DNA of 64,000 bases from Hyphomonadaceae bacterium. GTDB taxonomy: Bacteria; Pseudomonadota; Alphaproteobacteria; Caulobacterales; Hyphomonadaceae. Below, in pieces: positions 4,742 to 34,563 of this stretch (the stretch's first letter is position 1; each line of letters opens with the position of its first letter). The position numbers were made by a program, and so were the translations under genes. The notes beneath the pieces were generated by a model. It worked only from the letters and a program-made list of their open reading frames with translations. It had not been told where the DNA came from and did no database searches. The DNA lies in assembly GCA_024743315.1 (NCBI GenBank), contig JANSWU010000004.1:62001-126000 (forward strand), read 5' to 3'.

Positions 4742-4747
4742 GAGATT

Positions 4748-4818
4748 TTCCGGAGCGGAAGCTCCGGAAGGTCCTTCAAAACAAGCTGCCCGCGCCGAGA
4801 TCTCGGCGCGGGCTTTTT
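4748..4818 (+). terminator. double hairpin: GNRA-loop stem plus rho-independent terminator
   Basis: Six bases after the receptor stop lies a 9-bp stem (4748-4756 with 4761-4769) closed by a GGAA tetraloop. It is followed by a perfect 13-bp palindrome (4788-4800 with 4801-4813) running into five T residues (4814-4818). The second is a classical intrinsic terminator; the first may protect the 3' end of the mRNA. Confidence 0.88.
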
Positions 4819-4931
4819 GTTACTTTCGTTCCAGCTGTATTGCTCGGTGCAAACACTACTTTGGGCACATTGCCTCGGTTCTGGGCTTATGGTTATTCTG
4901 GTTGCTCAGGGACAGAGGAATTCGAACCACG

Positions 4932-6866
4932 ATGAAGAGACTCATAGCTATAGCTGCGGTAGCTGGCCTGCTTCCGCTTTCAAGTTTTGCCGCGCCGGAG
5001 CCGATCCCAACAGAAGTCTGGGCGGACACCACGCAAGTGCAATCGCTGGATATGTCACCCAATGCTGAGCGCATGGCGATGCTGATGCGGCGGGATCGCG
5101 GTGCAGACCACGAAATCCTGATTTTCGATACAGATGACATCAAAGGCAGCTTAAAAGCGATTGAAGCAGACGGCCTCCGGGCGCTCAGCCTGGCCTGGGT
5201 GAATGATGATTATCTCGTCATCAATTTCATCCTCGAAACGGAAGAAATGGGGCGTCCAGTCAATTACCGCCGCACCGCCTCATATAATGTTGAAACTGAA
5301 GAATGGACGTCTTTGGTTTTAACCACCAACCGGGCTAATCCGCGCGATCCGATGGATCAATTCATGGGTAATCTCGGGATTGGGCGTGTGGTCAATACAC
5401 TGCCCGATGATCCCAATCATGTATTGGTTTCGCACACCGAAGAGGCCGGTTTGGCACCCAATTATTATCGCACAAACGTAAAGACCGGTGCGCGCACGCG
5501 TACGCTGCGTGGCGGCGGTCGATTCTCCAGTTTTACGTTTGATCGCGAAGGTCAGGCCCGTGGTGCGCAGGAATATGACGCGGCGGCGAACCGGATCATC
5601 ACCTATGCCCGTGAATCTGAAAGCGACGAATGGGTCGAGATCGGGTCTCTGGACGCGGATAAACGCGACACGTTCGGACTTCTCGGCTTCTATGATGAGG
5701 ATCGTCCCTATATCGCGACAGCTGTCGCGACAGAACCGGGGGGCAATCACACAGTCGCATATGACATCGATATTCGAACCGGTGAACGCGAAATGATCTT
5801 CGGCGTCGAAGGCTATGACACCCTGGGCGTTTTGACCTCGCCCCGCTTGTCGGATGGATCCAAAATCGTCGGCTTCACCTATAGTGATAATGAGGGCACG
5901 CAGCGTTATTTCCTAGATGGTCAGCTCGCGGCCTTACACGATGGTCTGTCACAAGCCTTTCCGGGCCGCAGTGTCCAGATCCGCCGTATGTCTGAAGATG
6001 GTCAAACCGTGCTTGCCTATACCAGAGGTCCGCGCGATCCTGGCACTTGGTATCTTGTGAAAGACGGAAAAGTCGCTCCGGTCATCGGCGCGAACTCAGA
6101 GATACCGAAAGCAGGCCTGTCTGAAACACACGTGCTCGAATATACCGCGCGGGACGGTATGGAACTGGTCGGCTATGTGACTGTTCCGCACAATTCTGAA
6201 GGTCCTTTCCCGGCCATCGCGATGCCACATGGCGGCCCATGGGTACGCGACAATCGCGACTATGACCGGTGGGCGCAGATGTTGGCCAATCAAGGCTATG
6301 TCGTCTTCCAGCCGAATTATCGCGGATCAGATGGTCTTGGAAAAGACTACTGGATGGCTGGCGACAATAAGTGGGGCTATGAGATGCAGGATGACGTCGA
6401 GGACGGCATTCAAACGCTCATTGACCAAGGTATTGCTGATCCCGAACGGCTCGGTTTCTTTGGTTGGAGTTATGGCGGTTACAGCGCCTTTGTCGGCGCG
6501 ACGCGTGACGACCCGATGTTCAATTGCTTCGTGGCTGGCGCTGGGGTAGCCGACATTGGTCGCATCCGCGGCGGTCTGACCGGCAGCCGGTTCGCCCGCG
6601 AATTCCAGAAACCTACCATTTCTGGCGTAAACCCAATCGAACTGGTCGAGAATGTCACCAAGCCTATGCTATTGGTTCATGGCGACTATGATTCCATCGT
6701 ACCGGTGGAGCATAGCCGCCGGTTTGCCGATGGACTTGAACGTATCAATGCTGATTACGAGTATATCGAAATCGAGGATATGGGGCACAGTCCATTCGAG
6801 CTTGAAGAGAACATGCAATGGTTCCCTGCTTTGTTTGAGTTTTTCGACACGAAATGTGGATTCTAA
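4932..6866 (+). CDS. secreted S9 (prolyl oligopeptidase family) peptidase
   Basis: A 644-residue exported serine peptidase related to dipeptidyl/acylaminoacyl peptidases, expected to trim short peptides in the periplasm. It has a signal peptide (MKRLIAIAAVAGLLPLSSFA), an N-terminal beta-propeller region (about 30-390) and a C-terminal alpha/beta-hydrolase domain. The catalytic triad is visible: Ser513 in GWSYGG, Asp587 in HGDYDSIVP and His619 in DMGHSPFE. An in-frame start 30 bases upstream (4902) exists, but the ATG at 4932 places the signal peptide at the N-terminus and follows AGAGGAA. The gene lies 190 bases downstream of the TonB receptor terminator, so it is probably transcribed separately. 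The pairing suggests uptake and hydrolysis of peptides, which is an inference. Confidence 0.92.
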   Translation: MKRLIAIAAVAGLLPLSSFAAPEPIPTEVWADTTQVQSLDMSPNAERMAMLMRRDRGADHEILIFDTDDIKGSLKAIEADGLRALSLAWVNDDYLVINFILETEEMGRPVNYRRTASYNVETEEWTSLVLTTNRANPRDPMDQFMGNLGIGRVVNTLPDDPNHVLVSHTEEAGLAPNYYRTNVKTGARTRTLRGGGRFSSFTFDREGQARGAQEYDAAANRIITYARESESDEWVEIGSLDADKRDTFGLLGFYDEDRPYIATAVATEPGGNHTVAYDIDIRTGEREMIFGVEGYDTLGVLTSPRLSDGSKIVGFTYSDNEGTQRYFLDGQLAALHDGLSQAFPGRSVQIRRMSEDGQTVLAYTRGPRDPGTWYLVKDGKVAPVIGANSEIPKAGLSETHVLEYTARDGMELVGYVTVPHNSEGPFPAIAMPHGGPWVRDNRDYDRWAQMLANQGYVVFQPNYRGSDGLGKDYWMAGDNKWGYEMQDDVEDGIQTLIDQGIADPERLGFFGWSYGGYSAFVGATRDDPMFNCFVAGAGVADIGRIRGGLTGSRFAREFQKPTISGVNPIELVENVTKPMLLVHGDYDSIVPVEHSRRFADGLERINADYEYIEIEDMGHSPFELEENMQWFPALFEFFDTKCGF

Positions 6867-6869
6867 AAG

Positions 6870-6897
6870 AAAGGGCGGCGATCAAACCGCCCTTTTT
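6870..6897. terminator. bidirectional rho-independent terminator
   Basis: AAAGGGCGG (6870-6878) pairs with CCGCCCTTT (6887-6895), with T-rich sequence on the 3' side of both strands. It sits between the convergent peptidase and holin genes and overlaps the last codons of the holin, so it can serve both. Confidence 0.85.
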
Positions 6898-7363
6898 ATT
6901 TGTGCCTCACGCCCGCGCTTCGATCGCCGAACCACCACAGCGTGGCAGCGGTGGCGGCGAATGTGGCAGTTTCAGTGATGCTGGCACGATCAGCGAGATC
7001 GGCTGAAAACCAGATGAGAGTTGTGATCCCCCAAAGGAGCAATGTCAGCACCGGCCGTGTCAAAGCGCGGATCGCATCGACCCATCTATAGCTTGCCGCG
7101 ATTGCCGCTTCGGCGCGTAAGCTGGCATCAAGCCCGGACCAGCTGCCTTGAGTTTGCGCTAGGGCGAGCTCAGCTTCCGTTTCTTCGGCGCGCGCGGCCT
7201 GTTGCAACTTCAAGAGCTCGGTCTCATGCTGCCAGCGACGTTCTTCGTGCGCCATGGCCTGACGCTTTTCGAAATAGCTCGCGACCCGGCCAAGAGCGGT
7301 CCCAAACAAGCCGAACAGGCCGCCGCCAGCGGCGCTCGCAGCAACGCCAATTATGTCTGCCAT
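6896..7363 (-). CDS. GTA-type three-helix holin
   Basis: A 155-residue protein matching the architecture of the holin family described for release of gene transfer agents. It has a glycine-rich hydrophobic N-terminal segment (about 3-25), a charged coiled-coil middle rich in Glu/Gln/Lys, then two hydrophobic segments around ALTRPVLTLLLWG and TAATLWWFGDRS; the RP...WFG pattern near the C-terminus is typical. Holins form inner-membrane lesions that let an endolysin reach peptidoglycan. The start at 7363 is chosen because AAGGAG lies seven bases upstream; it overlaps the end of the endolysin gene by 13 bp, implying coupled translation. The head and tail genes it would serve are eroded elsewhere in the window (30.0-34.6 kb). 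The family call rests on pattern recognition. Confidence 0.62.
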   Translation of the reverse strand: MADIIGVAASAAGGGLFGLFGTALGRVASYFEKRQAMAHEERRWQHETELLKLQQAARAEETEAELALAQTQGSWSGLDASLRAEAAIAASYRWVDAIRALTRPVLTLLLWGITTLIWFSADLADRASITETATFAATAATLWWFGDRSAGVRHK

Positions 7364-7710
7364 GCCGATCTGCTCCTTCCATAATACCAAGTTGCCGGGA
7401 TCTGCCGACGATCGAGATGGATGAAAGATTGCGCCAGGCCGATGCCGCGAAAACCGTGCTTACGTGCTGCCCTCAGCACGGCATGCCGATCTAATCCATA
7501 AAGGGACAGATCAACCGCGATCTGTTTGTGCCGCGAACGGGCTGCCCCGCCAATAAAGGCGTTCCATTGCGCACATCGATGGCCTGAGCAGACATGCAAT
7601 GGTTCTGCAACGTCATCGCGAAGCGCTTGTAAGCGATCGAGGAATCCGGGACCGTGCCAATATGCGCCCGCGCAGAACCGTCCCTGACATCGGCAAGCGA
7701 GCTCGGCCAC
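7351..7710 (-). CDS. M15-type peptidase, probable GTA/phage endolysin
   Basis: A 119-residue protein with the fold signature of D-Ala-D-Ala carboxypeptidase-like (M15) endolysins: the CSGHRCAQWNAFIGGAARSRH block, an AVDL aspartate and a C-terminal FIHLD histidine provide the usual zinc ligands. The spacing between the first His (SRH) and the Asp is one residue shorter than the family's usual pattern and the Gly within it is missing, so activity is uncertain. The called start is a GTG (7708-7710). However, 26 in-frame codons upstream (7711-7788) read like genuine protein (FPQAYEALSPQWRWRNFS resembles the N-terminus of this family) and no ATG, GTG or TTG exists between them and a TGA at 7789-7791. 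Either a CTG start is used or the 5' end has suffered a frameshift. It overlaps the holin gene downstream. Confidence 0.66.
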   Translation of the reverse strand: MAELACRCQGRFCAGAYWHGPGFLDRLQALRDDVAEPLHVCSGHRCAQWNAFIGGAARSRHKQIAVDLSLYGLDRHAVLRAARKHGFRGIGLAQSFIHLDRRQIPATWYYGRSRSAWQT

Positions 7711-7851
7711 TGAGAAGTTTCGCCAGCGCCATTGCGGCGACAGCGCTTCATAGGCTTGTGGAAACGACGTGTAGAGCAGCGCAAATCCTCACCCATCTAA
7801 GTGATCGGTGAGGATATGAACTGATTTTTCCGGTAGAATTCAGCGTCGGAC

Positions 7852-8844
7852 CTAGGCGGAAACAGAAGCCATGCTGAACGCCCGACGATTCTGCAGTGCC
7901 TCGATCGCGGCGACATATTCGGCCTCAAGCTTATCGACATATTCCGCTGTGCTCATCCGGGATTTGACTGCGCCAATCCCCTGCCCGCAGCCCCAAATGT
8001 CGCGCCAGGCTTTGGACTTCTGATTGCCACCAGAGCCGAAGTTCATCGCGCTCGGATCACTTTCCGGCAGATTGTTCGGGTCGAGGCCCGCTTGGGCGAT
8101 TGACGGCGCCAAATAGTTGCCGTGCACGCCAGTGAACAGGTTGGAGTAGATAATGTCTTTGGCATCGCTTTCGACGATCATGTCCTTATAGCCATCGACC
8201 GCATTGGCCTCATCACAGGAAATGAAAGCCGAGCCGATATAGCCAAGGTCTGCGCCCATGGCCTGGGCCGCCGCAACCGCCCCGCCATTGCCCATGGCAC
8301 CGGACAAAGCCAGCGGACCATCAAAGAATTCGCGAATGTCCTGAATGAGTGCCAGCGGCGAAATCGTCCCGGCATGGCCGCCTGCGCCCGCCGCGACTGC
8401 AATCAGGCCGTCCGCGCCTTTTTCCAGCGCTTTGCGCGCGAAGATCGTATTGATGATATCGTGCAAGACGATGCCGCCATAAGAGTGGATCGCCTGATTC
8501 ACTTCCTCACGCGCGCCAAGCGAGGTAATCACCACAGGCACTTTGTATTTCACGCACATTTCAACGTCATGCTCGAGACGGTTATTGGTCTTGTGGACGA
8601 TTTGATTGACCGCGAAGGGCGCTGACGGGCGGTCCGGATTCTTGGCATCATACTCAGCTAACTCAGTCGTGATGCGGTCGAGCCACTCATCCAGCTGCGC
8701 TTCAGGACGCGCGTTCAGCGCCGGGAAAGAGCCAACCACACCGGCTTTACATTGCGCGATCACCAGATCCGGGTTGGAAATAATGAAAAGCGGGCTGCCA
8801 ATAACCGGGATGCGAAGGTTTTGCAGGATCGGAGGTAGCGCCAT
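7852..8844 (-). CDS. nitronate monooxygenase family flavoprotein
   Basis: A 330-residue FMN-dependent TIM-barrel enzyme of the nitronate monooxygenase (formerly 2-nitropropane dioxygenase) family, which oxidises toxic alkyl nitronates; some members act as enoyl reductases. The sequence begins with the expected MALPPILQNLRIPVI and GSPLF segment, contains the phosphate/FMN-binding glycine-rich block AAGAGGHAG (about residues 170-180) and the ALSGAMGNGGAVAAAQAMGA barrel strand. The reading frame extends 97 codons further upstream, but the family's N-terminus is at the ATG 8842-8844, so that start was chosen. It is divergent from the methylmalonyl-CoA mutase genes, with about 170 bases between. 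The exact substrate is unknown. Confidence 0.88.
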   Translation of the reverse strand: MALPPILQNLRIPVIGSPLFIISNPDLVIAQCKAGVVGSFPALNARPEAQLDEWLDRITTELAEYDAKNPDRPSAPFAVNQIVHKTNNRLEHDVEMCVKYKVPVVITSLGAREEVNQAIHSYGGIVLHDIINTIFARKALEKGADGLIAVAAGAGGHAGTISPLALIQDIREFFDGPLALSGAMGNGGAVAAAQAMGADLGYIGSAFISCDEANAVDGYKDMIVESDAKDIIYSNLFTGVHGNYLAPSIAQAGLDPNNLPESDPSAMNFGSGGNQKSKAWRDIWGCGQGIGAVKSRMSTAEYVDKLEAEYVAAIEALQNRRAFSMASVSA

Positions 8845-9016
8845 CAGGGATCTCTCTTGGTTTCCGTTTACGTTAGCGTTGAGGTAGCACCCAGAGCAAT
8901 TGAGGCAAGCCCTTCCCACAGGGCATTCGCCCTGCTTTGGCGTTGCGTGAGGCTTGCCAGCCTCGTCCCATTGGGCCAAATCCGGGCTACGAGATTCCTT
9001 GTGAGGACAAGTGCAG

Positions 9017-10954
9017 ATGGCAGACGGAACGCATACGCTCTCCAGCGGCTTTGACGAAGCTACGGAAGCCGATTGGCTGGCGGCGGTCGAAAAAGCGCTA
9101 AAAGGCGGCGGCATAGACCGGATTACCCGTGACACCCGCGATGGCGTGAAAATCCGTCCGCTCTATCGTGAAACCGATTTTGCCAGCGGCGAGAACCCGC
9201 GCGGTCTTCCGGGAGATTCCCCCTTCTTGCGCGGCGCATCCGAGGCGCCAGACCCGTTTCTGCCCTGGGACATGCGCCAATGCTTTTCTCACCCAGACCC
9301 AGCCGTGACAAATCAGGAAATCCTGCGAGATCTCGAACGCGGCGTGAGCTCTGTTCATCTCGCCATTGAGTGCTCTGGCAAGACCGGCTGCATCATTACC
9401 AATCTCGATCAGATGAGTGCCGCATTGAGCGGCGTTCGGGCCGACATTGCCACGATCAGTCTCGGCCATCGCGGCGCCGGGTCTGGCGCAAGCGCTGCAG
9501 CGCTGCTCGCACTTTGGGCGGACCAGCAAGATGAGCCCACCGCACAGAAACTTGCCTTCAATATCTCACCGATCCGGCAGCTCTCTCGGACCGGAAAGGT
9601 TACTGAGGGCGTGGATACAGCCTTTGCCAAGACCGCCGCGCTGGTCGACGTTTTGGCGACGAAGTTCCCAAACGCGACGGCGATGGAGGCGAGCGGCCAA
9701 ACGGTTCATGAAGCGGGCGGGAGCGAAGCGCAGGAATTGGGCGTGATGATTGCCGATGCGGTGGATCTGCTCCGGCGCCTCAATGCCGTGGGGCTCCCGA
9801 CCGCTCGAGCGGCCGAGCAGCTCGTTTTCAAGCTTGCGGTGGACGCAAATTACGGGATCGGGATTGCCAAGCTGCGCGCCGCGCGGCGGCTCTGGGCGCG
9901 GGTGCAGGAGGCGCTCGGCCTGCCGCCTGCCCCGATGAGAATACACGCTGTCACCAGTGCCCGCATGCTGACCCGCTATGATGCCTGGGTGAATATGCTC
10001 CGCGGCACGGCGGCCTGTTTCGCCGCCGCGACCGGCGGCGCCGATGTGATCACCGTACGGGCCTTCAATGAAAGCTTCAGCGTGCCGGAGGAACTCGGCC
10101 GCCGGATCGCCCGCAACACGCAAATCATAGCCATGGAAGAAAGCGGCCTCGGCCGCGTCGCCGACCCAAGTGGCGGCGCTTGGTTCACGGAAACTCTGGC
10201 CGAAGATATTGCCCAGGAAGCCTGGGCGGAATTCCAACGCATTGAAAGCGAAAGCGGCCTGGTTGAAAGCCTGGTTGCTGGCAAGGTCCAGGTGCGGATC
10301 GCAGAGAAATGCGAGGCCCTGAAGAAAGCCGTGGCACGTCGCAAAGTGCCGGTGACTGGGGTCAGCGAATTCCCGCTGCTCGAAGAGATCGAAGCGCCGG
10401 TCGCCGACGTTCAGAGCCCACCGCCTGGAGATGGGGTTGATCCGATCGGGCTCAGCACCTTGCTCCCGGATTTCCAGACTAAGTCCGGCGAAGACACGGT
10501 TGCAGAGCCCCTTCGGTGGATCAGCATGGCAGCTCCTTTTGAAACTCTGCGCGACCGTTCGGAAGACCACTTGGCTGAGACTGGCGCGCGGCCATCCATC
10601 TTCCTGGCGACGCTCGGCCCGTTGGCCGAGCATACCGCCCGGGCGGATTTTGCCCGCAATTTCTTCGCCGCCGGCGGGATTGAAGCGAAAACCGCGCCCG
10701 TGCCACCGCAAAGCCCTTCAGAACTCGCCGCGGCCTTCAAGGCAAGCGGCTGTAAGATCGCCGTGCTCTGCGGCGCGGATAAACGCTACGCTGATGAGGC
10801 GGCCGAAGCTGCAAAAGCCTTGAAAGATGCAGGCGTTGTCGCGCTTTGGCTTGCGGGCAAACACGAGGCAGATGGCGTCGACCGACAGGTATTCATGGGC
10901 TGCGACGTGGTCCACGAATTGACCGTGGCGCTGGCTGAATTGGGAGTGAAGTAA
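9017..10954 (+). CDS. mutA: methylmalonyl-CoA mutase, small (beta) subunit
   Basis: This 645-residue protein is the non-catalytic partner of heterodimeric, B12-dependent methylmalonyl-CoA mutase, which converts (R)-methylmalonyl-CoA to succinyl-CoA in propionate, odd-chain fatty acid and branched amino acid catabolism. It has the mutase TIM-barrel (about 30-450; ARNTQIIAMEESGLGRVADPSGGAW is diagnostic, here about residues 370-395) and a degenerate C-terminal B12-like domain that lacks the DxHxxG cobalamin motif, as is usual for the small subunit. The ATG at 9017 lies nine bases after AGGA, better spaced than the GTG at 9011. It abuts mutB with no intervening base, so the two are co-translated. 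Confidence 0.93.
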   Translation: MADGTHTLSSGFDEATEADWLAAVEKALKGGGIDRITRDTRDGVKIRPLYRETDFASGENPRGLPGDSPFLRGASEAPDPFLPWDMRQCFSHPDPAVTNQEILRDLERGVSSVHLAIECSGKTGCIITNLDQMSAALSGVRADIATISLGHRGAGSGASAAALLALWADQQDEPTAQKLAFNISPIRQLSRTGKVTEGVDTAFAKTAALVDVLATKFPNATAMEASGQTVHEAGGSEAQELGVMIADAVDLLRRLNAVGLPTARAAEQLVFKLAVDANYGIGIAKLRAARRLWARVQEALGLPPAPMRIHAVTSARMLTRYDAWVNMLRGTAACFAAATGGADVITVRAFNESFSVPEELGRRIARNTQIIAMEESGLGRVADPSGGAWFTETLAEDIAQEAWAEFQRIESESGLVESLVAGKVQVRIAEKCEALKKAVARRKVPVTGVSEFPLLEEIEAPVADVQSPPPGDGVDPIGLSTLLPDFQTKSGEDTVAEPLRWISMAAPFETLRDRSEDHLAETGARPSIFLATLGPLAEHTARADFARNFFAAGGIEAKTAPVPPQSPSELAAAFKASGCKIAVLCGADKRYADEAAEAAKALKDAGVVALWLAGKHEADGVDRQVFMGCDVVHELTVALAELGVK

Positions 10955-13111
10955 ATGACCACGTTCCCGGATTTCACTAAACTCGATCTCGGCGCGCTTG
11001 AGCCCAACAGCGCGAAAGCGCGGTCGCGGACCCTCCCCACCCCAGAAGGGATCGACCTCGCCTCCGCATATAGCGCCGCGGACACGAAAGGTCTCGATTT
11101 CCTCGACGATTATCCCGGCCTCGCCCCGTTTGGACGTGGCCCCTACCCGACCATGTACACCCAGCGGCCGTGGACGATCCGGCAATATGCGGGTTTCTCC
11201 ACAGCCGAGGATTCCAACGCCTTCTATCGCCGCAATCTCGCAGCTGGGCAGAAAGGCCTCTCGGTCGCGTTCGATCTCGCTACCCATCGCGGCTATGACA
11301 GCGACCATGTTCGCGTCAGCGGCGATGTCGGCATGGCAGGTGTCGCCATCGATAGCATTTATGACATGCGCACGCTCTTTTCAGGCATTCCGCTCGATCA
11401 GATGTCGGTGTCGATGACAATGAATGGCGCCGTGCTGCCAATCATGGCGCTGTACATTGTCGCCGCTGAGGAACAAGGCGTCGGGCCGGACAAGCTCGCC
11501 GGGACCATCCAGAACGACATTCTGAAAGAGTTCATGGTCCGCAACACTTATATCTATCCACCCAAGCCGAGCATGCGGATCATTTCGGACATTTTTGCCT
11601 ATACCTCGCAGAACATGCCGAAATTCAACTCGATCTCGATTTCCGGCTATCACATGCAGGAAGCGGGGGCGACGGCCGATCTGGAGCTCGCCTACACCAT
11701 TGCGGACGGCATCGAATATATCCGCGCCGGCGTGAATGCCGGGCTCGATGTCGATGCCTTTGCGCCGCGCCTCAGCTTCTTCTGGGCGATCGGCATGAAC
11801 ACGTTCATGGAAGTCGCCAAGATGCGTGCCGCGCGCCTGATCTGGGCCAAACTGGTCAGCGAAGAATTCGCGCCAAAGAACCCGAAATCGACCTCACTTC
11901 GCACCCATTGTCAGACGTCCGGCTGGTCGCTGACCGCGCAGGATGTCTACAATAATGTCATCCGCACCTGCCTTGAAGCGATTGCGGCAGCCGGTGGGCA
12001 GACCCAAAGCCTGCACACCAATTCCTTTGATGAAGCGCTTGCCCTGCCAACCGATTTCTCAGCCCGCATTGCGCGCAACACGCAGCTCTTTCTGCAACAG
12101 GAAGCCGGCGCCGCGCAGACCATCGATCCATGGGGCGGCTCTTATTATGTCGAACGCCTGACACATGATCTCGCCGCGAAAGCGCTGGAACACATTGCCG
12201 AAGTCGAAAAGCTCGGCGGCATGGCCAAAGCGATTGAGGAAGGCATCCCGAAACTGCGGATTGAAGAAGCCGCCGCCAACACCCAGGCGCGCATCGATAG
12301 CGGTGAACAGACCGTGGTCGGAGTCAACAAGTTCCTGCTCGACGAGGACGAGGAAGTTCCGGTCCTGAAAGTCGACAATGCGACGGTCCGCCGAATGCAG
12401 CTCGACAAGCTGGCGCGCCTGAAATCAGACCGCGACCAGGGCGAAGTCGATGCCAAGCTCGACGCGATTGCCAAGGCCGCAGCAAGCAAAGACGGCAACC
12501 TGCTCGCGCTCGCCGTCGATGCGGCGCGGGCCAAGGCGACCGTCGGCGAAATCTCTGAAGCCGTTGAACGCAGCCAGGGCCGCCACAAGGCGGTGATCCG
12601 CTCGATCAAGGGCGTTTATGGCGCGGGCGTGAAGACCACAGATCGCGCCAAGGAAGCGATGGGCTTGGCCGAAGCCTTTGCCGCCAAACATGGCCGCCGC
12701 CCAAAGATCTACATCGCCAAGATGGGCCAGGACGGCCATGATCGCGGCCAGAAAGTCGTCGCCTCAGCGCTCATGGACCTGGGTTGGGAGGTCGAGATCG
12801 GCCCGCTCTTCCAGACGCCCGAAGAAGCCGCCAAGGATGCCCGCGCCGCTGGCGTCGACATTGTTGCCGCCTCGTCGCTCGCGGCCGGACACCTGACCCT
12901 GGTCCCGGAGCTGAAACGCGCGCTCGGCAATGAAGGTGCGGCCGCGACCCAGATCATTGTTGGCGGGGTGATTCCACCGCAGGACTTTGATGCGCTCCGC
13001 GCGGCGGGTGCCTCGGCCATCTTCCCGCCGGGCACCGTGATTGCCGATAGCGCCGTGGCGATGCTGGAAATTCTGACTGGCGAGGATGACGGCATCCAGG
13101 CGGCAGAATGA
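10955..13111 (+). CDS. mutB: methylmalonyl-CoA mutase, large (alpha) catalytic subunit
   Basis: The catalytic subunit (718 residues) carries the substrate-binding TIM barrel and the cobalamin domain. The N-terminal segment [21 protein letters not shown] is the family's substrate-binding signature, [10 protein letters not shown] lies in the barrel, and the C-terminal domain has Asp593-Gly-His595-Asp-Arg-Gly598, the DxHxxG motif whose His ligates cobalt. Length and domain order are typical. It follows mutA directly and overlaps the next gene by four bases (ATGA). Together with the liu genes at 34-45 kb it indicates branched-chain amino acid and propionyl-CoA use. Propionyl-CoA carboxylase, epimerase and the MeaB chaperone are not in the window. 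Confidence 0.97.
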
Positions 13112-13719
13112 GCGAGCGCGCCTCCAATGCCGGTTATGCGGACGAGGCGCCCGACCTGCTGCAACGCTATGAGAGTTTCGCCCCTGAGGAGGTGCACGCG
13201 CATTGGCGGCAATGGTTTCCGAAACCGCCTCGCCGCGTGCTCGACATCGGTGCTGGCACGGGTCGTGATGCAGCTTGGTTGGCGTCTCTAGGCCATTCCG
13301 TTCTGGCGGTGGAACCGACCGATGCACTCCGCCATGGGGCGCAGGCCCTGCACCCCGAGCCTGGCATCACCTGGCTCAGCGATTTGCTTCCCGGCCTTCC
13401 AAATGTTGTCGCCCTGAACCAGCGCTTCGACCTCATCCTGATCAACGCGGTGTGGATGCACCTGACAGAGGCCGAGCGGCGGACCGCGTTTGCGACCGTT
13501 GCTGGCCTGATGGCGTCTGGCGCACGCTTGTTCATCAGCCAGCGCCATGGTCCGATCCCTGAAGGGCGCCGGATGTTTGATGTCACGGGAGCGGAAACCA
13601 TCGCCTTCGCGACCCGGTATGGGCTCAAAACGCTCTATCATGAACGCAAGGGCTCGATCATGGCGGAGAGCACGCGGCGCGGGGTAGAGTGGACCTGTCT
13701 GGTCTTTGAAAAATCCTGA
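13108..13719 (+). CDS. class I SAM-dependent methyltransferase
   Basis: A 203-residue soluble protein with Rossmann-type methyltransferase motif I ([19 protein letters not shown], about residues 40-58), an acidic residue ending beta-2 (AVEP) and a motif IV-like region ([13 protein letters not shown]). The substrate is unknown. The gene overlaps the mutB stop by four bases and is therefore part of the mutAB transcript; no functional link to the mutase is known to me. Confidence 0.82.
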
Positions 13720-13789
13720 CACCGCGTGAGGCTTTTCAAGCGCGTACATCCAGTCCATCCTGACGTGAAAGAGCGATGCGGAGGGATTG

Positions 13790-15223
13790 ATGGACACATA
13801 TGCCGACTTTGACGCAATGGGGCTGGCGGAACTGGTGCGCAAAGGCGAGGTCAGTGCCAGCGAATTATTGAACGAAGCTGTCACGCGCGCCAAGGCCGCG
13901 CAAAAAGACCTCAATTGCTTCTCCGCCATATTCCCGGAAGTCGCTGAAGCCCAGATTGCGGAAGGCTTGCCAGACGGCCCGTTCGCGGGCGTTCCGATGG
14001 CGGTGAAGGATCTTGGCTTTGAAATCAAAGGTCAGCCAATTACCAATGGCTCGCTCGCGTTCAAAGGCAATGTGGCGGAGCGCAATAGCGTCCTTTGCGA
14101 ACGCTACAAGGCGGCGGGCTTCACCCTGTTCGGTCAGACGACGAGCCCGGAATTTGGCCTGACGACGACCACGGAAAGCCTGCTTTATGGCGCCACGGTC
14201 AATCCCTGGGACACGAGCCGAACCTCGGGCGGCTCGTCTGGCGGCGCAAGTGCTTGCGTCGCGGCGGGCGTGATCCCGATGGCACATGCCAGCGATGGCG
14301 GCGGCTCGATCCGCATCCCGGCGGGCTGCACCGGACTGTTTGGGATGAAGCCGTCGCGTGGTCGCACGCCGATGGGACCGGCGACGACGGAAGGCTGGAA
14401 CGGGCAATCCACGGTCCACGCGGTCTCACGCTCGGTTCGCGACAATGCCGCCTTGCTCGACGCTACGCATGGCCGCGAGATTGGCTCACGCTATGTCGCG
14501 CCTGAGCCGGACAGCACCTTCCTCAGCGCCCTCGATAGCGACCCAAAACCGCTCAAGATCGCGCTCTGGACCACGGCCCCGAATGGCACGGTGCCGGATC
14601 CAGATGCTCAGGCCGGGCTCGACAAGACCCGGGCGCTACTGGAAGAGCTCGGTCATCATGTCGAGGAGGCGGGTCCGGCATTGGATGGCGAAGTGCTCGG
14701 CAAGAGCCTGATGGTCACCGTGTCTGCCGCCATCGCCATGGTCATGGAAGCGCGCGGCGAGGCGCTGGGCCGCGACCTCGGACCGGAGGACATGGAGCCG
14801 GTGACCGCCCGCTTTGTCGAGTTTGGCAATTCCATCCCGATGAAAGAGCTGATGAAGGCAACGCAGGCCTCGATCACAGCCGGCCTCGTCTATGAGCAAT
14901 TCCTGGTCGATGGCGGCTATGACATGGTGCTGTCACCAACCATGTCGCGGGTGCCGGACAAGACCGGCGTGCTGTCGTTAAACCCCGACGATATGGAGGC
15001 CTATACCCAAGCGGTCACAACCTTCGCACCCTGGTGCGCCATTTCCAATCAGGCTGGATCACCTGCCATGAGCGTGCCGCTGCACTGGTCCGATGAGAAC
15101 CTGCCCATCGGCATGATGTTCGGGGCGCGCACCGGCAATGAGTGGGAACTCTATCAATTGGCAGGTCAGCTGGAGCGCGCTGCACCCTGGGCCCATCGCC
15201 ATCCCCCCTTCTGGGTCGGTTAG
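13790..15223 (+). CDS. amidase signature family hydrolase
   Basis: A 477-residue member of the amidase signature family, which hydrolyses carboxamides with a Ser-cisSer-Lys triad. The triad is visible as Lys73 (PMAVKDLG), Ser149 (SGGSSGGAS) and Ser173 (GGGSIRIPAG). The family includes aryl/alkyl amidases, 6-aminohexanoate-cyclic-dimer hydrolase and GatA; the absence of gatB/gatC neighbours and the sequence of the C-terminal part argue against GatA. The ATG at 13790 follows GGAGG by five bases, better than the TTG three bases earlier. The end overlaps the convergent DUF6445 gene by four bases. Confidence 0.88.
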   Translation: MDTYADFDAMGLAELVRKGEVSASELLNEAVTRAKAAQKDLNCFSAIFPEVAEAQIAEGLPDGPFAGVPMAVKDLGFEIKGQPITNGSLAFKGNVAERNSVLCERYKAAGFTLFGQTTSPEFGLTTTTESLLYGATVNPWDTSRTSGGSSGGASACVAAGVIPMAHASDGGGSIRIPAGCTGLFGMKPSRGRTPMGPATTEGWNGQSTVHAVSRSVRDNAALLDATHGREIGSRYVAPEPDSTFLSALDSDPKPLKIALWTTAPNGTVPDPDAQAGLDKTRALLEELGHHVEEAGPALDGEVLGKSLMVTVSAAIAMVMEARGEALGRDLGPEDMEPVTARFVEFGNSIPMKELMKATQASITAGLVYEQFLVDGGYDMVLSPTMSRVPDKTGVLSLNPDDMEAYTQAVTTFAPWCAISNQAGSPAMSVPLHWSDENLPIGMMFGARTGNEWELYQLAGQLERAAPWAHRHPPFWVG

Positions 15224-29146: not shown

Positions 29147-30013
29147 TCATCCATCATAGCCGCGCGCCCATTCTTTCAGTGCGCGATCCTTTGGATCATC
29201 AATGACGACTTCCAGGCGAGCATAAAGATGCCCTGTCTTGCCTTGAACCTGAACGCCCTTATTCCGCAGACGAAGCACAGCACCGGTATTGCTACCTTCT
29301 GGAATCTTGAGGGCAATTGGCCCCATCGGGGTCGCGACATCGACTTGTCCGCCCAGTACAGCCGTTTTCAGCGGCACCGACACGGCCATGCGTACATCAT
29401 TGCCGTCGCGAGTCCAAATTTTGCTGGGTCGAACGCTGATTTCGAGGATGGCATCCCCGGGCGGTCCACCGATTGTGGAGCCCTTACCCTGACTTTTCAA
29501 ACGTAAGGATTGACCGGTCTCGATCCCCGCGGGAATAGAAATATTAAGAGTCCGACCATCGGCCATGGTCATTTCCCGCTTTGCCCCTGTGATCGAGTCC
29601 TCGAACGAGATTTCGACGCGGTATCGCATATCCGCGCCCTTGCGTGGCCCTGGCCGTCGACGCCCACCGCCAAACATGCCTGACAATATGTCTTCGAACG
29701 GATCGCCTTGGAACCCGCTACTCGATCTGGAAAATCCCTGAAAGCCACGCCCTTCGCCAAATCCGCCCCCGGGATCAAACCCTTTGGGATTTCCATCGGC
29801 ATCAATTTCACCCCGATCATACTGACCGCGTTTTTCAGCGTCCCCGAGAATCTCGTATGCCGTGGATGCTGACTTGAAGGCCTCCGCCTTTTCCGCATCA
29901 TTTGGGTGCAGGTCGGGATGGGAGTCCTTTGCCTTGCGCTTATAGGCACGGCGAATGTCTTCGGCGCTGGCGGTCCGCTGAACTCCGAGGATTTTATATA
30001 GGTCTCTACTCAT
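29147..30013 (-). CDS. J-domain co-chaperone of CbpA/DnaJ class B type
   Basis: A 288-residue Hsp40: J domain (about 1-68) with the HPD motif at residues 32-34 (SHPDLHP), a Gly/Phe-rich linker (about 78-125) and two beta-barrel substrate-binding domains (about 125-285; GADMRYRVEISFEDSITGA, DGRTLNISIPAGIETGQSLRL). The zinc-finger cysteines of class A DnaJ are absent. It stimulates DnaK ATPase and delivers clients. It is 36 bases from the GTA remnant downstream edge. Confidence 0.93.
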   Translation of the reverse strand: MSRDLYKILGVQRTASAEDIRRAYKRKAKDSHPDLHPNDAEKAEAFKSASTAYEILGDAEKRGQYDRGEIDADGNPKGFDPGGGFGEGRGFQGFSRSSSGFQGDPFEDILSGMFGGGRRRPGPRKGADMRYRVEISFEDSITGAKREMTMADGRTLNISIPAGIETGQSLRLKSQGKGSTIGGPPGDAILEISVRPSKIWTRDGNDVRMAVSVPLKTAVLGGQVDVATPMGPIALKIPEGSNTGAVLRLRNKGVQVQGKTGHLYARLEVVIDDPKDRALKEWARGYDG

Positions 30014-30049
30014 TCACCAAAAGCGGTCCGAACAAAACTCGGAGCACAC

Positions 30050-30721
30050 TTAAGGCGAAGGCAGCTGAATGGAAACCCACTCTCCTCTGCGCTGATCGGC
30101 TCCAATCTCGGCGACGGATATTGCATCATATTCCCCGAGAGGAAATGAGATTGCAGCAACAGATTGTGTTGGATGACGCGTTTCGTCTGCATTCTGATAG
30201 GTTCGCACGTCAAACTGGGGTGAGCGAGATACGTCCGCGCGCTCCCAATTATTGCTGAAAATCTCGCCACGCGCGGTCCACGATACTTGCACTTGCTGAT
30301 CCTGGATCTCGGCGCGTAGGTGTCCAACGCGCCAAGGACGCCCCGCGCGGTCAGCGCACACAGCCGTTTGAACATTGGCCATGCCAGCTTGCCAGAAAAG
30401 TTCCACGCCAATTTCGTCTTCCGTTAGCCCGACTTGCAGCAAGTTAACATCGACCAAAACAACCTGACTTCCGACTGTAGCCGGGCCGATCGGTGACCCA
30501 TTTAAACCGCGCAGCAAGCCTCGCAGGCGCCACTGATCCGGGCCAACTAAGTCGGCATCGCGCCAAGCAAGCAGTTCCCAACCGTGCTCATTCTGCAGGA
30601 GTAGGCGGTTCTTGCCGGCGAGCACGGCTATTGGCTCCATGGACTGCAAATTCGAGAATGGCAAATGGAGATGAATTTCATTACCGGCATCCCATCGCCC
30701 GAGGGGGCCGGCGCCTATATC
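30050..30721 (-). pseudogene. C-terminal remnant of GTA giant tail/baseplate protein (gp15-like)
   Basis: About 220 codons survive of a protein that is normally around 1300 residues in Rhodobacter-type gene transfer agents. Diagnostic text is the block GAGPLGRWDAGNEIHLHL then AVLAGKNRLLL, WELLAWRDADLVGP and QWRLRGLLRGLNGSP, typical of the C-terminal part of that protein. The frame is open upstream through the portal gene's stop codon (position 30715-30717) until the two genes' frames part, showing that the remnant was joined to portal sequence by deletion and not by an orderly gene start. An internal TTG (30662-30664) could start a 204-residue product, but no function is expected. The normal 3' end is kept. 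Confidence 0.75.
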
Positions 30722-31713
30722 GCGATTTCCAGGTCCTCAAACCGTCCTCGTAGCCAGACTTCCATCGCGTTCGCGGTCTTTTGCACGAGCGGTAAAATGG
30801 TCAGTCGCCAAAACGCCAGATGCGCTTCCTTGTAGGTCGCATATGTGTTGTCACCGGGGATGCCGAGCAGCATGGGCGGCACCCCAAATGCCAAAGCGAT
30901 TTCGCGGGCCGCGGCATCCCGGGTCGCAGCAAAATCCATTTCTGCTGGCGACAGACTCATTGGTTTCCAATCGAGCCCCCCTTCGAGCAATAGCGGGCGT
31001 CCGGCATTTATGGCTCCGGTATGCTCGCTCACCAATTGTTCCTTCAGGCGATCGAACTGATCGTCAGACAAACGCGCGCCTTCTTTTCCATATAGCAATG
31101 CCCCGGATGGGCGCGCCGCATTGTCGATCAAAGCTTTGCCCCAGCCCGCCGCGCCATTATGAATGTCGAGCGGTTTGCGCGCCGCTGACATCGGCGACAA
31201 GCCATAGACGCTGTCTCCCGGATGATAGAGCTTGAGATGCAAAACCGGGGACCAGCCGTCTGACGCGATTGGAATGATCCGTTCGCCGCGTTTCAGCTTT
31301 AAAGCAAACCCGATCCGGCGACCCGCCTTGTCAAAGCGCACCACCATGCAATCAGAACGCAAAGCAAATAGACCTTTCGGAAGCGTCTCTCCATCTAGTT
31401 TTACCGCTTCCAGCCAAGCATTCCCGGTGATCTGCAAGTCGGTGTAAAGACGTTCTTTCAAAGCGTGTCCGGCTTCATCGGGCGAAGGCTGATTGAACAT
31501 GCCCGCAACCCGGCCATCGCTTGGCTTGAACGGGATCGAAGCGGCCGCCTCCGCGATCATGCGCACACAGCGATAAGCAATTGCATTGCCAGTATATCCA
31601 TCCCGCACCAAGGCGCTCGGACTCGATCGCCCCCAAGCCGCCAGCGGCAGGTGCGCGAGAGCGATCAAAGGCTGCGCAGATTTGAATTCAGATTTGGACC
31701 AGGGAAGCTTCAT
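30715..31713 (-). CDS. HK97-type portal protein of a gene transfer agent, 3'-truncated
   Basis: A 332-residue portal-like protein. Conserved segments include GNAIAYRCVRMIAEAAASIPF (N-terminus), FNQPSPDE, ITGNAWLEAV, YGLSPMSAARKPLDIHNGAAGWGKALIDNAARPSGAL and FAATRDAAAREIALAFGVPPMLLGIPGDNTYATYKEAHLAFWRLTILPL. Complete GTA portals are nearer 390-400 residues; this one stops at RFEDLEIAI, about where homologues continue with another 50-60 residues, and the DNA goes straight into the gp15 remnant in a different frame. It is therefore probably a non-functional or at least orphan portal. Normally the terminase gene is immediately upstream and the prohead protease and capsid immediately downstream; here the terminase is 1.5 kb away and protease and capsid are gone. 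Confidence 0.85.
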   Translation of the reverse strand: MKLPWSKSEFKSAQPLIALAHLPLAAWGRSSPSALVRDGYTGNAIAYRCVRMIAEAAASIPFKPSDGRVAGMFNQPSPDEAGHALKERLYTDLQITGNAWLEAVKLDGETLPKGLFALRSDCMVVRFDKAGRRIGFALKLKRGERIIPIASDGWSPVLHLKLYHPGDSVYGLSPMSAARKPLDIHNGAAGWGKALIDNAARPSGALLYGKEGARLSDDQFDRLKEQLVSEHTGAINAGRPLLLEGGLDWKPMSLSPAEMDFAATRDAAAREIALAFGVPPMLLGIPGDNTYATYKEAHLAFWRLTILPLVQKTANAMEVWLRGRFEDLEIAI

Positions 31714-31906
31714 ACGCCGTCTGGTGACCTCCTACACGTCTCAACGCTAAGAGAATTAGACGCTCCGGAGACCGGTCGGACTGGTTTCCACTTTGTTAAG
31801 CCTTTTCATGTGTTTTGCTCGGAAAATCATAAGACGGATCCTCGCATTGGCCGGGATCCAAGTCGTTTTTCACTCGCAAGACTGCGGAGATTTTGAAGGG
31901 GGCTTG

Positions 31907-32815
31907 ATGCTCGGACGCGTTATTTCTGTTGCCAATTCCAAAGGCGGCGTCGGTAAAACCACAACCACTGTTTCTCTCGCCGAAGCGTTTGCCGCTGAGG
32001 GCTATAAAACGCTTGTGGTTGATCTTGACAGCCAAGCCAATGCCTCACTGCTAATCTTTGGAGAGAATGGCGACGAGCGGCTCTATGACGCCATCCACAA
32101 TTACACCAATGTGTCTGACTATCTGCGCGAAAACTTCCTCGGGGAGTGCTTCGCTCATATGACCAAGTTCATCGTGCCGAATGCCAGTGATGTCACCTTT
32201 ATGGGCAAGCCGCTCGACCTGTCTTTGGTTCCGGCGACGCCCGGCCTGCGCCGGGCAGAAAGAGAACTGATCTATATTCTGACCGAGCAAGGCTACTCAA
32301 TGACGGCAATCGAGGGCCGTGTTGGCTTGCGTTTGCGCCAAGACATGGCGGATCTCAGAAAACAATATGACGTTGTGATTTGCGATTGCCCTCCGGGCAT
32401 TTCAGCGATGACTGAGGCGACGCTCTCAGCCTCAGATTTGATCATCGTACCGACGATACCCGATTTCATGTCGACGCTCGGCCTCGACTTGTTTACCGGA
32501 GACATCATTGACAGCTTGAAGAAGCGCGGTCTCAGCAACCGGCCCGTTGTGCTTCCAACCAAGTTTGACGGCTCACCGCATCAGAGCATCGTGCTGGAAG
32601 CCATGCGCGAGGGTGCGACTGATCCGGATAGCGAATATGATATCTTCCAGACGGTGATTCCGCAGAAACCGGAATTTGCAGCCAACCCGGTTGAGCTTGG
32701 GGCAAACCCCACCCTGGCTCAAAAATGGCCAGGTGATGCGCTGACCACGGTAAATATGCTATATCAGGAAGTTCAGGCGCGCCTGTCGGCGCAATCCACC
32801 AACGCAGCGGCTTAA
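31907..32815 (+). CDS. ParA-family Walker ATPase
   Basis: A 302-residue ATPase of the ParA/MinD superfamily, which position DNA or protein cargo by ATP-dependent dimerisation. The deviant Walker A motif is NSKGGVGKTT (residues 10-19, with the signature Lys12 and catalytic Lys17); Walker A' is VVDLDSQANAS (about 37-47) and Walker B is VVICDCPPGIS (about 155-165). There is no N-terminal helix-turn-helix, so it resembles small chromosomal or cargo-positioning ParAs. The ATG at 31907 follows AAGGGGG; the open frame extends 114 bases upstream without similarity. It is divergent from the portal gene and forms a two-gene unit (3-base gap) with the next gene, on the opposite strand to the flanking GTA genes. 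No parS-like site was recognised. Confidence 0.93.
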   Translation: MLGRVISVANSKGGVGKTTTTVSLAEAFAAEGYKTLVVDLDSQANASLLIFGENGDERLYDAIHNYTNVSDYLRENFLGECFAHMTKFIVPNASDVTFMGKPLDLSLVPATPGLRRAERELIYILTEQGYSMTAIEGRVGLRLRQDMADLRKQYDVVICDCPPGISAMTEATLSASDLIIVPTIPDFMSTLGLDLFTGDIIDSLKKRGLSNRPVVLPTKFDGSPHQSIVLEAMREGATDPDSEYDIFQTVIPQKPEFAANPVELGANPTLAQKWPGDALTTVNMLYQEVQARLSAQSTNAAA

Positions 32816-32818
32816 ACA

Positions 32819-33244
32819 ATGGCACTCACCGGCACAGGGCGCACAGCGCTTTCAGCGATTTTGGAACACGAAAGCCTGTTCCCGCGGATCAAAGACACCG
32901 ATCTTGTACTTGTGGCGAGCAAACTGGCTCGCAAACAAGTCACGGCGGCGGGTCTTACGCGTGATGACCTGCTCGAACTCAAGACCACTTTGGGCGAGGA
33001 AGTGTTTGAAAAAACTCTGGATGGCCTGAGCCCACACCACATCAAACTTCTTGCCAGGCGCCTCGATAAAACCGCCCCTGAAATCGAAGTGAATACAGGC
33101 AGTTCGGCTTTGTCTTATGTGCGTCAGATTTTGGCGGGCGACATTGCTCCTGCGGCCGCCCCCGCTCAAGACCCAAAACAAGCCGAAACAGCTAAAAAGA
33201 AGAACAAATATCTTGGCCGCAAGGCGTTTCGAACCGGGCGCTAG
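32819..33244 (+). CDS. small protein paired with ParA, function unknown
   Basis: A 141-residue protein I do not recognise. The first 85 residues look helical and alternately charged (LFPRIKDTDLVLVASKLARKQVTAAGLTRDD; LSPHHIKLLARRLDKTAPEIE), then an Ala/Pro/Gln-rich stretch and a very basic tail (AKKKNKYLGRKAFRTGR). No membrane segment or signal peptide. It starts three bases after the ParA stop and overlaps the convergent terminase stop by four bases. ParA-type ATPases usually have a small adjacent partner that stimulates their ATPase through a basic peptide; the basic tail makes this protein a candidate for that role or for the positioned cargo adaptor. This is inference from context and composition. 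Confidence 0.7.
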   Translation: MALTGTGRTALSAILEHESLFPRIKDTDLVLVASKLARKQVTAAGLTRDDLLELKTTLGEEVFEKTLDGLSPHHIKLLARRLDKTAPEIEVNTGSSALSYVRQILAGDIAPAAAPAQDPKQAETAKKKNKYLGRKAFRTGR

Positions 33245-34563
33245 AGGGCGCGAATGCGCGGATGCTGGGTTTGATCCAACATTAATACCGTGACCGCCCA
33301 GACCAAAGCATCAACACGATCCGGAGAGCCAGTTTGCGCGTCGGTTCCGAAGGCGCACATCTCGTCCTCAAGATCTTTAAACGTTCCGACATGGGCAACC
33401 CTGCCCTGACTGTAGAGCGCCGCGACCGGCAGGGCGCGGGTTCGCTTGCTCAACCTGGCATTGACGAGCCGGACCGGCAGCGTGCACCCGACACTGGTAA
33501 AAACCGTGCGCAGCATCTCGCCGCCCTGGTTGGCTTCCGCAATGATTTCAGAGGCCCCAAAACTCTCCGCCAGATTAACTGCGCGCATTGCCCACCCTTC
33601 TGGCGCCAAGCCCTGCTCGGTCGCATCTTCAAGGACGAAACACTGGCGCTCTGGAACATCTTTTACCGCAACGCCGGCAACGATGATGCCGCAAGCGTCG
33701 GAGGCCGTATGCGCGGAAGCTGGCGGATCTACGGCCACAACGATGTCTTCCCAACACTGAGGTGTTCGAAAGACGCGATGTGCATCTATGGTTTTCCGTC
33801 GCCAGAGCGCGCCTTGAATGTCCTCAATCAATTCGCCTTCAAGCTCTTGGCGGGCCAGCGCGCTGCCCCGATAATCGGCTTCGACCTGATCGACGAAGCC
33901 GATTGCGAGATTGGCCGCATTTTCTCGCGTGGTGCTTCGTGTGAGCATCGCTCCCTGTGAGATCAGGCGTTTGACCAATGGCACCGGGCGGGGAGTCGTC
34001 GTCGCCACGCATCTGGGATCGTCGCCCAAACGCAAGGCGAACTGAAGATTATCCCAGACCGCTTCGCCATAGGGCCAGGCAGCGATTTCATCGCACCAGG
34101 CTGCATCAAATTGAGGGCCGCGTAAGCTGTCTGGATCTTCAGCTGAGAAGACCAGTCCGATCGCACCATTTTTCCATTCCAGGCGCCGCCGCGAGACATT
34201 GTAGTCGGGTTTGAATTCCTCCAATCTCTCAATCGACCGAATGCCAGAGGGCCCTTCAATCATGACCTCGCGTGCGTCACCCAAGGTTGGGGCAATCAGA
34301 GCAATTCTCTGGCAACGTCCGTGCAATGCTGAAAAGCGCACCCATTCCGCCCCGGCCCGAGTTTTCCCAGCCCCACGTCCGCCCATAAACAGCCATGTCC
34401 GCCAATCGCCTTTTGGCGGGCGTTGCGCGTCACGTGCGGTCGATAGAAACGGAAATTGTCGCAGTGCCAGAAGCTCCGTTCGCGAGAAGTCTTCCGACAG
34501 TTGATAGTGGTCATCCCACCAATCGTCCCAGGTCAGCGCGGGCGCGCGATCCGATGTCTCCAT
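33241..34563 (-). CDS. large terminase (DNA-packaging ATPase/nuclease) of a gene transfer agent
   Basis: A 440-residue TerL with ATPase and nuclease domains, apparently full length. Walker A is GGRGAGKT (61-68), Walker B plus catalytic Glu is FDAAWCDEIAAW (about 155-166), the coupling motif region has CVATTTPRPVPLVK, and the RNaseH-like nuclease domain shows VVAVDPPASAHTASDACGII (about 275) and DRVDALVWAVTVL (about 415). TerL would pump host DNA into capsids, but the rest of the packaging system here is truncated or missing. Intact coding in a decayed cluster suggests recent decay or another use. A plus-strand ParA unit separates it from the portal gene it usually precedes. Confidence 0.92.
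   Translation of the reverse strand: METSDRAPALTWDDWWDDHYQLSEDFSRTELLALRQFPFLSTARDAQRPPKGDWRTWLFMGGRGAGKTRAGAEWVRFSALHGRCQRIALIAPTLGDAREVMIEGPSGIRSIERLEEFKPDYNVSRRRLEWKNGAIGLVFSAEDPDSLRGPQFDAAWCDEIAAWPYGEAVWDNLQFALRLGDDPRCVATTTPRPVPLVKRLISQGAMLTRSTTRENAANLAIGFVDQVEADYRGSALARQELEGELIEDIQGALWRRKTIDAHRVFRTPQCWEDIVVAVDPPASAHTASDACGIIVAGVAVKDVPERQCFVLEDATEQGLAPEGWAMRAVNLAESFGASEIIAEANQGGEMLRTVFTSVGCTLPVRLVNARLSKRTRALPVAALYSQGRVAHVGTFKDLEDEMCAFGTDAQTGSPDRVDALVWAVTVLMLDQTQHPRIRAL

Follow-up and report, generated by a model that had tools for sequence, protein, structure and literature searches.

The window analysed here is a stretch of 64,000 nucleotides (G000:C7:62001-126000) from a genome assembled in eight contigs (3.31 Mb, 99.93% complete) that appears, judging from its near relatives, to belong to a Henriciella-like member of the Hyphomonadaceae. 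The comparison set comprised 29 genomes of the window's genus, including the window's own (G000), and 105 Hyphomonadaceae genomes served for a wider survey. Along the minus strand, a carboxylase gene is followed by the terminase (34563-33241), the portal (31713-30715) and the tail of the megatron (30715-30050) of a gene transfer agent (GTA), and then by dnaJ (30013-29147); a parA pair on the plus strand lies between terminase and portal. The features are as follows.

33241-34563, minus strand: full-length GTA large terminase (TerL), 440 aa (PF03237, E 3.7e-32; PF17289, E 3.3e-21)
32819-33244, plus strand: 141-aa gene to which no function was assigned, partner of parA, on the opposite strand within the GTA cluster (67-80% identity in eight relatives, 51% in G022)
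31907-32815, plus strand: ParA-type ATPase, a non-GTA gene between terminase and portal (PF13614, E 9.3e-34)
30715-31713, minus strand: truncated GTA portal, 330 portal codons plus two foreign codons and a stop (PF04860, TIGR01537, relatives' portals)
30715-30724, minus strand: deletion junction, with about 8 bases (30716-30723) fitting neither gene (comparison with relatives' portal and megatron)
30050-30715, minus strand: 3' remnant of the GTA megatron (gp15), about 220 open codons (NF048004, PF23666, phrog_4271, G007 megatron)
30050-30078, minus strand: bipartite DNA element GGGTTTCCAT-N16-TAA, which closes with the megatron stop codon (28 of 29 genus genomes; 65 bases to dnaJ)
29147-30013, minus strand: dnaJ/cbpA-like chaperone gene adjoining the GTA cluster on its downstream side (PF01556, PF00226)

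The order terminase-portal-gap-megatron-dnaJ is that of the intact relatives minus the middle. Terminase, portal and megatron all belong to GTA families and are collinear with the relatives' GTAs, and the locus occupies the same fixed chromosomal place, sharing a carboxylase, DnaJ, a small gene and a response regulator as host neighbours with the cluster-keeping relatives, as expected of a locus descended from an RcGTA-like cluster. The dnaJ-like gene adjoins the megatron at the matching position in these intact relatives. Since the parA pair also separates terminase and portal in cluster-keeping relatives, its presence does not reflect decay. The 141-aa partner has a Pfam match below threshold only, and the ParA protein is 95-96% identical in eight relatives and 86% identical in G022. 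Between the window and those eight relatives ParA is thus 95-96% identical, whereas portal and terminase are 61-74% identical. The pair (31907-33244, plus strand; also at loci L113, L114, L117, L159, L160 and L033) is retained in four of the deletion genomes described below (G001, G014, G024 and G028).

The terminase aligns over its whole length with those of five relatives and retains the GGRGAGKT motif and the conserved acidic positions, features whose significance we presume; a sequence-only reading of this DNA had called the gene intact, correctly. The portal frame extends from 31713 down to 30718 and is closed by a TAG at 30717-30715; it matches PF04860 (E 2.2e-66) and also TIGR01537. Homology to the portals of close relatives holds through residue 330, the final two codons (A, I) and the stop being foreign. 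At 332 codons, the G000 portal falls short of the 369-377 found in the near relatives G026, G007, G014, G015 and G010 and is not full length, as a functional GTA would need: the five relatives' proteins extend 39-47 residues further and share in this extension a motif, PAFA..R.A.W.R....FLS..EKR, that G000 lacks. In a frame other than the portal's, 30736-30053 matches PF23666 (Rcc01698_C, E 2.3e-21). The same fragment covers positions 1053-1257 of 1299 of the NCBIfam GTA_megatron model (NF048004, E 2.5e-30, below the model's whole-protein cut-off, as expected of a fragment) and positions 1057-1260 of 1309 of phrog_4271, and it aligns with residues 1015-1231 of the G007 megatron, a protein of 1231 residues. 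Both the portal and the megatron-tail matches are far beyond chance. The sequence-only reading had placed the portal stop at 30715-30717, with the gp15 C-terminus continuing downstream in another frame; the coordinates are right, and alignment of the two frames to family models, which it had proposed as a check, recovers the portal and megatron families. The portal proved incomplete by comparison with its close relatives and the downstream fragment clearly gp15-like, the two points on which that reading had staked itself.

In intact relatives the two breakpoints are separated by 9,542 bp (G007) or 9,525 bp (G015). This interval holds gp3.5, protease, capsid, gp6, gp8, gp9, gp10, gp11, gp12, gp13 and gp14, together with a DM13-domain gene and about 1014 megatron codons; the gp numbers and the name 'protease' follow what we take to be RcGTA usage, and the identities of terminase, portal, megatron, capsid and DM13, like the tape-measure match of gp11, rest on profile matches. 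The whole G000 genome gave no match at E 0.001 to the HK97 capsid (PF05065), the prohead protease (PF04586), DUF2460 (PF09343) or the DM13 protein, indicating that these genes are gone rather than relocated. The excision of head and tail genes between the portal and late gp15 that had been proposed is thus borne out by the roughly 9.5 kb present in intact relatives and missing from G000, and the suggested search for capsid and protease elsewhere in the genome gave the result a deletion predicts. Among components that a functional GTA would require, G000 lacks the major capsid gene (at least one is found in 20/29 genus genomes), the prohead protease and the tail assembly genes, the megatron being reduced to its last ~220 codons. 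The strain is therefore predicted to make no GTA particles.

From gene content and alignments we conclude, with a probability of about 0.93, that the locus is a recently inactivated RcGTA-type cluster in which portal codon 330 and megatron codon ~1015 were brought together by a deletion. Such a deletion, of about 9.5 kb, would have removed portal codon 331 to megatron codon 1014; with capsid, protease and tail genes gone, particles would no longer form, and the terminase, truncated portal and megatron tail would be leftovers. We infer a loss in one event, as the sequence-only reading had it; nested deletions could yield an identical junction.

Portal homology stops at 30724 and megatron homology begins at 30715, and comparison with the relatives' portal and megatron revealed no extended shared sequence at the junction; the event behind it would thus have proceeded without extended homology at its ends. 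The junction lies within a 451.7-kb contig and the deletion is known from the assembled sequence of one strain, where an assembler might have dropped the middle of a cluster that is in reality intact. We regard such an artefact as scarcely credible: capsid, protease and DUF2460 are unmatched anywhere in a 99.93% complete assembly, the junction offers no shared sequence able to collapse, and similar junctions occur in other genomes, including the single-contig genome G028.

The deletion in G000 is one of nine different ones, as judged from gene content, in the 29 genomes of the genus. A capsid match is absent from G000, G001, G005, G006, G014, G018, G023, G024 and G028, and the layouts of all nine differ. 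G028 has portal residues 1-104 fused to megatron residues 857-1231, and G006 has terminase residues 11-163 fused to megatron residues 1017-1231, with parA absent at the locus. Terminase residues 36-311 are fused in frame to megatron residues 156-1231 in G018, giving one frame of 1384 codons. In G005, which has lost the portal, the whole terminase, a gp14 piece and DM13 lie on one contig, and a megatron without residues 49-935 (48|936) on a second. G014 keeps a whole portal, gp3.5 and protease residues 8-55, followed by dnaJ, and its terminase carries one TAG. G001 and G024, with three breaks each, retain terminase pieces, the parA pair, DM13 and then, ahead of dnaJ, some 23 and 18 terminal megatron codons, respectively; the megatron-end match in G001 is weak (E 0.12), but the DNA there matches G026. 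Finally, terminase residues 28-69 are fused to about the last 75 megatron codons in G023, an end that was detected with the G027 protein and missed by both the family model and the G007 protein. The sequence-only reading had left room for an ordered decay, an idea at odds with nine genomes in nine different layouts, G005 having a whole terminase without a portal and G014 a whole portal with a stop in its terminase.

Relative to G010 (85-90% DNA identity), microhomology of about 5 bp can be seen where portal and gp14 meet in G024, and relative to G007 and G015 the junction of G028 is blunt to within 2 bp, with 0-2 bp of microhomology. Seven junctions were displayed (three in G024, three in G001 and one in G028), five of which (two in G024, all three in G001) hold ~50-160 unassigned bases and point to no clean mechanism. 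No extended shared sequence was seen at the junctions of G000, G024 (portal|gp14) or G028. The resolved junctions are consistent with illegitimate recombination and do not fit a recombinase site. Site-specific or repeat-mediated excision, by an integrase, an IS or a repeat, was considered and set aside in view of the nine differing layouts.

Lesions are also present in four of the 20 cluster-keeping genomes: a TAA in the megatron of G010, a TAG in the capsid gene of G026, a TAG in the terminase of G020, and a terminase split over two frames in G013. These may represent early decay or sequencing errors.

Several other features of these loci deserve mention. The G018 fusion unites the ATPase part of the terminase with most of the megatron (locus L127, G018:C34, about 302783-306769, minus strand). 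In one subclade (L113:10089-10523 and relatives), gp14 and the megatron are separated by a DM13-domain gene whose product looks secreted; G001, G005 and G024 retain this gene despite the loss of nearly all the neighbouring GTA genes, G024 has a second copy elsewhere, and the sole copies of G014 and of G028 lie outside the GTA locus. For DUF6456 (PF20057), a single borderline match turned up in G000 (G000:C3:112627-112872, E 1.6e-5) and none in the other 28 genus genomes, a match that says nothing on GTA regulators here.

The three G000 remnants contain 0 in-frame stops in 990 codons, which agrees with the earlier suggestion that the decay is recent. Under an assumed transition weight, zero stops would be left with P <0.05 once neutral divergence exceeded 0.026 per site (0.048 for portal and megatron alone). 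The G000 terminase is 70% identical to that of G026; as divergence from the nearest relatives lies far above the stop-free bound, the loss in G000 is recent by comparison, unless the remnants are still under selection. The latter would be the case if the terminase, the truncated portal or the megatron tail had been domesticated for a new function. A stop-free set of remnants with a full-length, motif-bearing terminase is what domestication would produce, the terminase is whole in two further deletion genomes (G005 and G028), and with outgroups G012 and G022 the G000 terL gene has evolved no faster than those of intact relatives (29:33 for G000 against G026, outgroup G022). With outgroup G027, however, G000 terL is the faster (48:27 against G007), and the gene is truncated or broken in G001, G006, G018, G023 and G024 and carries one TAG in G014, so that nothing keeps terL in general. 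As a recent loss accounts for the same data, we consider domestication very unlikely and retain recent inactivation as the explanation. For the portal, the relative-rate test of G000 against G007 gave 34:14 with outgroup G022 and 20:22 with outgroup G027. Relaxed selection on the remnants was also considered as a conclusion from these tests and was dropped, the results being inconsistent between outgroups.

Species that have lost the cluster interleave with species in which it is intact: G024 groups with G010, G001 with G026, G028 with G015, and G018 with G008 and G019. G010, which keeps the cluster, shares 95-97% identity with G024 in the terL piece, DnaJ and carboxylase. A shared ancestral loss was rejected on account of this interleaving. 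On a tree of RpoB and DnaJ with 28 rows (G010 was left out for lack of data), parsimony requires 7 changes (bootstrap range 7-7), and shuffled labels need 7.8 on average, indicating that the loss label is not clustered. Only if regain is excluded do these gene contents translate into nine losses, all on end branches. Simulations of irreversible loss at a constant rate, restricted to runs with 8-10 lost tips, placed every loss on an end branch in 2/2080, 28/2177, 57/1382, 30/596, 19/229, 2/54 and 1/4 runs at seven rates, an eighth rate giving no run with 8-10 lost tips; the end-branch placement is suggestive, not decisive. Losses were distributed 8/15 and 1/14 between the two halves of the genus (Fisher p 0.014, a test chosen after the tree was seen).

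Beyond the genus, a megatron match was obtained in 79 of the 105 Hyphomonadaceae genomes, above the curated cut-off in 61; G001, G014, G023 and G024 are among the 26 that gave none. Counting pieces under the cut-off whose N side does not abut a contig end, a C-terminal megatron piece stands alone in 11 genomes (G000, G006, G028, G066, G076, G083, G086, G091, G094, G117 and G120), and an N-terminal piece alone in none of the 105; G005 and G030 have pieces of both ends. Pieces at contig edges (G009, both; G029; G034, C4; G062, C112; G077; G113) and broken or gapped but mostly complete megatrons (G018, G080, G088, G103, G105, G106, G108 C27 and G109) were left out of the count. A sign test on 11:0 gives a two-sided value of about 0.001, and this asymmetry may also reflect geometry, in that edges go last. 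In all eight C-terminal-only genomes outside the genus, the contig continues past the piece and a dnaJ match follows; in G120, tblastn with the G007 protein did not pick up the piece itself. G066, G083, G086 and G094 have a protease, gp12 or portal piece joined or near to the last 135-244 megatron codons, the last 485 megatron codons of G091 come after the parA pair with no portal between, and more particle genes, among them the capsid gene, survive in G076 and G117. Nearly all particle genes are matched in G030 (L126, reversed locus 2745-12571), where the megatron lacks its middle, residues 4-343 being joined to about residue 1061.

The surviving megatron end carries a conserved DNA element with the consensus GGGnTTC[CA]AT-N16-TA and a rigid spacing, which begins 60-74 bases upstream of the start of dnaJ in the 20 genomes measured. 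It is kept in 28/29 genus genomes, including eight of the nine with deletions, the exception being G014, where the element is lost and dnaJ is still present. The first half coincides with the conserved W[GVA]SI codons of the megatron and the second tends to overlap the megatron stop; conservation of the protein therefore has to be excluded as the cause. At the [GVA] codon, 20/20 capsid-keeping genomes have T as third base, the highest value of the 28 four-fold positions scored (median 0.5). The TTAAG/TTATG half persists where the stop has moved, namely in G007, G010, G012, G022 and G024 (G007, G010 and G024 being close kin). In G091 and G076, extra sequence separates the megatron from dnaJ: the displaced megatron end no longer carries the motif, and non-coding sequence next to dnaJ retains a copy in G091 and, with one mismatch that makes it fail the pattern, in G076. 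Third-base invariance, the retained TTAAG/TTATG half and the non-coding copy on the dnaJ side together point to constraint on the DNA that is independent of the protein, as a dnaJ promoter within the megatron would require. The extra sequence ends in a similar peptide, AKPGC.AARVDPVR, in G091 (L193, about 13640-14180) and G076 (L190, about 12531-12590).

A strict form of the pattern occurs 26 times, at most once per locus and always just upstream of dnaJ, in the window and all loci longer than 3,000 bases (173/196 loci; 4.66 Mb on both strands, partly overlapping, with L001 repeating the window); as the pattern was built from the scanned sequences, the informative part is the absence of other hits. 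A relaxed form lies beside dnaJ in 35/49 genomes, made up of 28/29 of the genus, 6/7 of genus g5 (six of these seven genomes having been picked for carrying deletions) and 1/13 others. The relaxed pattern has a second match in the window at 48640 on the plus strand. A consensus scan of 29900-31800 returned no sigma-70-like site, so that it is conservation which speaks for a promoter, and the element matched no named promoter class. On this evidence the element at the megatron 3' end is probably the promoter of the dnaJ-like gene, G014, with dnaJ but no element, speaking against it.

A cis element of dnaJ in the megatron 3' end would make a deletion running through that end costly, and the element may in this way limit deletions there. 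Tentatively, we propose that deletions recur in these bacteria but are held back at the shared dnaJ promoter, which would anchor the GTA remnants and penalise complete removal of the cluster, and that losses sit on end branches as if GTA-less lineages were replaced or failed to diversify; taken as a whole, this scenario is possible but doubtful. The main rival to a promoter as the reason for the sparing of the megatron end is edge geometry: the end would survive as the edge of the deleted block, edge pieces being expected to go last, and the element would be an accident of protein conservation (W-x-S-I) and a fixed stop. The two halves of the element do fall on conserved W[GVA]SI codons and the usual stop codon, respectively, and the 5' part of terL, at the opposite edge of the cluster, is also kept in several deletion genomes. 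An accident of this kind would not, however, account for a third base that is invariant across three amino acids (G, V and A), for the half-site kept despite moved stops, or for the non-coding copy in G091 and its mismatched counterpart in G076, and we hold it to be rather unlikely.

How GTAs, which kill cells and share genes, persist despite non-producers is a standing question. Nine GTA deletions beside cluster-keeping sister species constitute natural matched pairs for the costs and benefits of a GTA, and the likely promoter of a host gene overlapping the GTA end offers a concrete, testable reason for where remnants end. A literature search on Henriciella and gene transfer agents found no paper, and among the matches listed no title concerned the G000 junction or a dnaJ element in a GTA. 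The parts of PMC9836097 and PMC6821227 considered here contain nothing on Henriciella or on deletion junctions. The Caulobacter GTA and its control are described in the consulted portions of PMC11150451 and PMC9632790, the main texts of which do not contain the word dnaJ; in PMC13236601, DnaJ occurs in the reference list only.

Like the RcGTA-like clusters of Rhodobacter capsulatus (RcGTA) and Caulobacter (CcGTA), the G000 locus carries a terminase, an HK97-type portal and a megatron of the same families and in matching order, and the clusters of its near relatives likewise end in the megatron. It differs from them in lacking about 9.5 kb and in having parA and its partner on the other strand between terminase and portal. 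According to the sections of PMC10883770 considered here, GTA pseudogenization and complete loss have occurred in multiple lineages and are linked to non-producing cheaters. Recurrent loss of an inherited GTA is thus already published there and common to both cases, whereas the breakpoints and their independence in a single genus, together with the dnaJ element that is retained, are described here, those sections giving no such anatomy; the dnaJ element at the megatron 3' end is new here.
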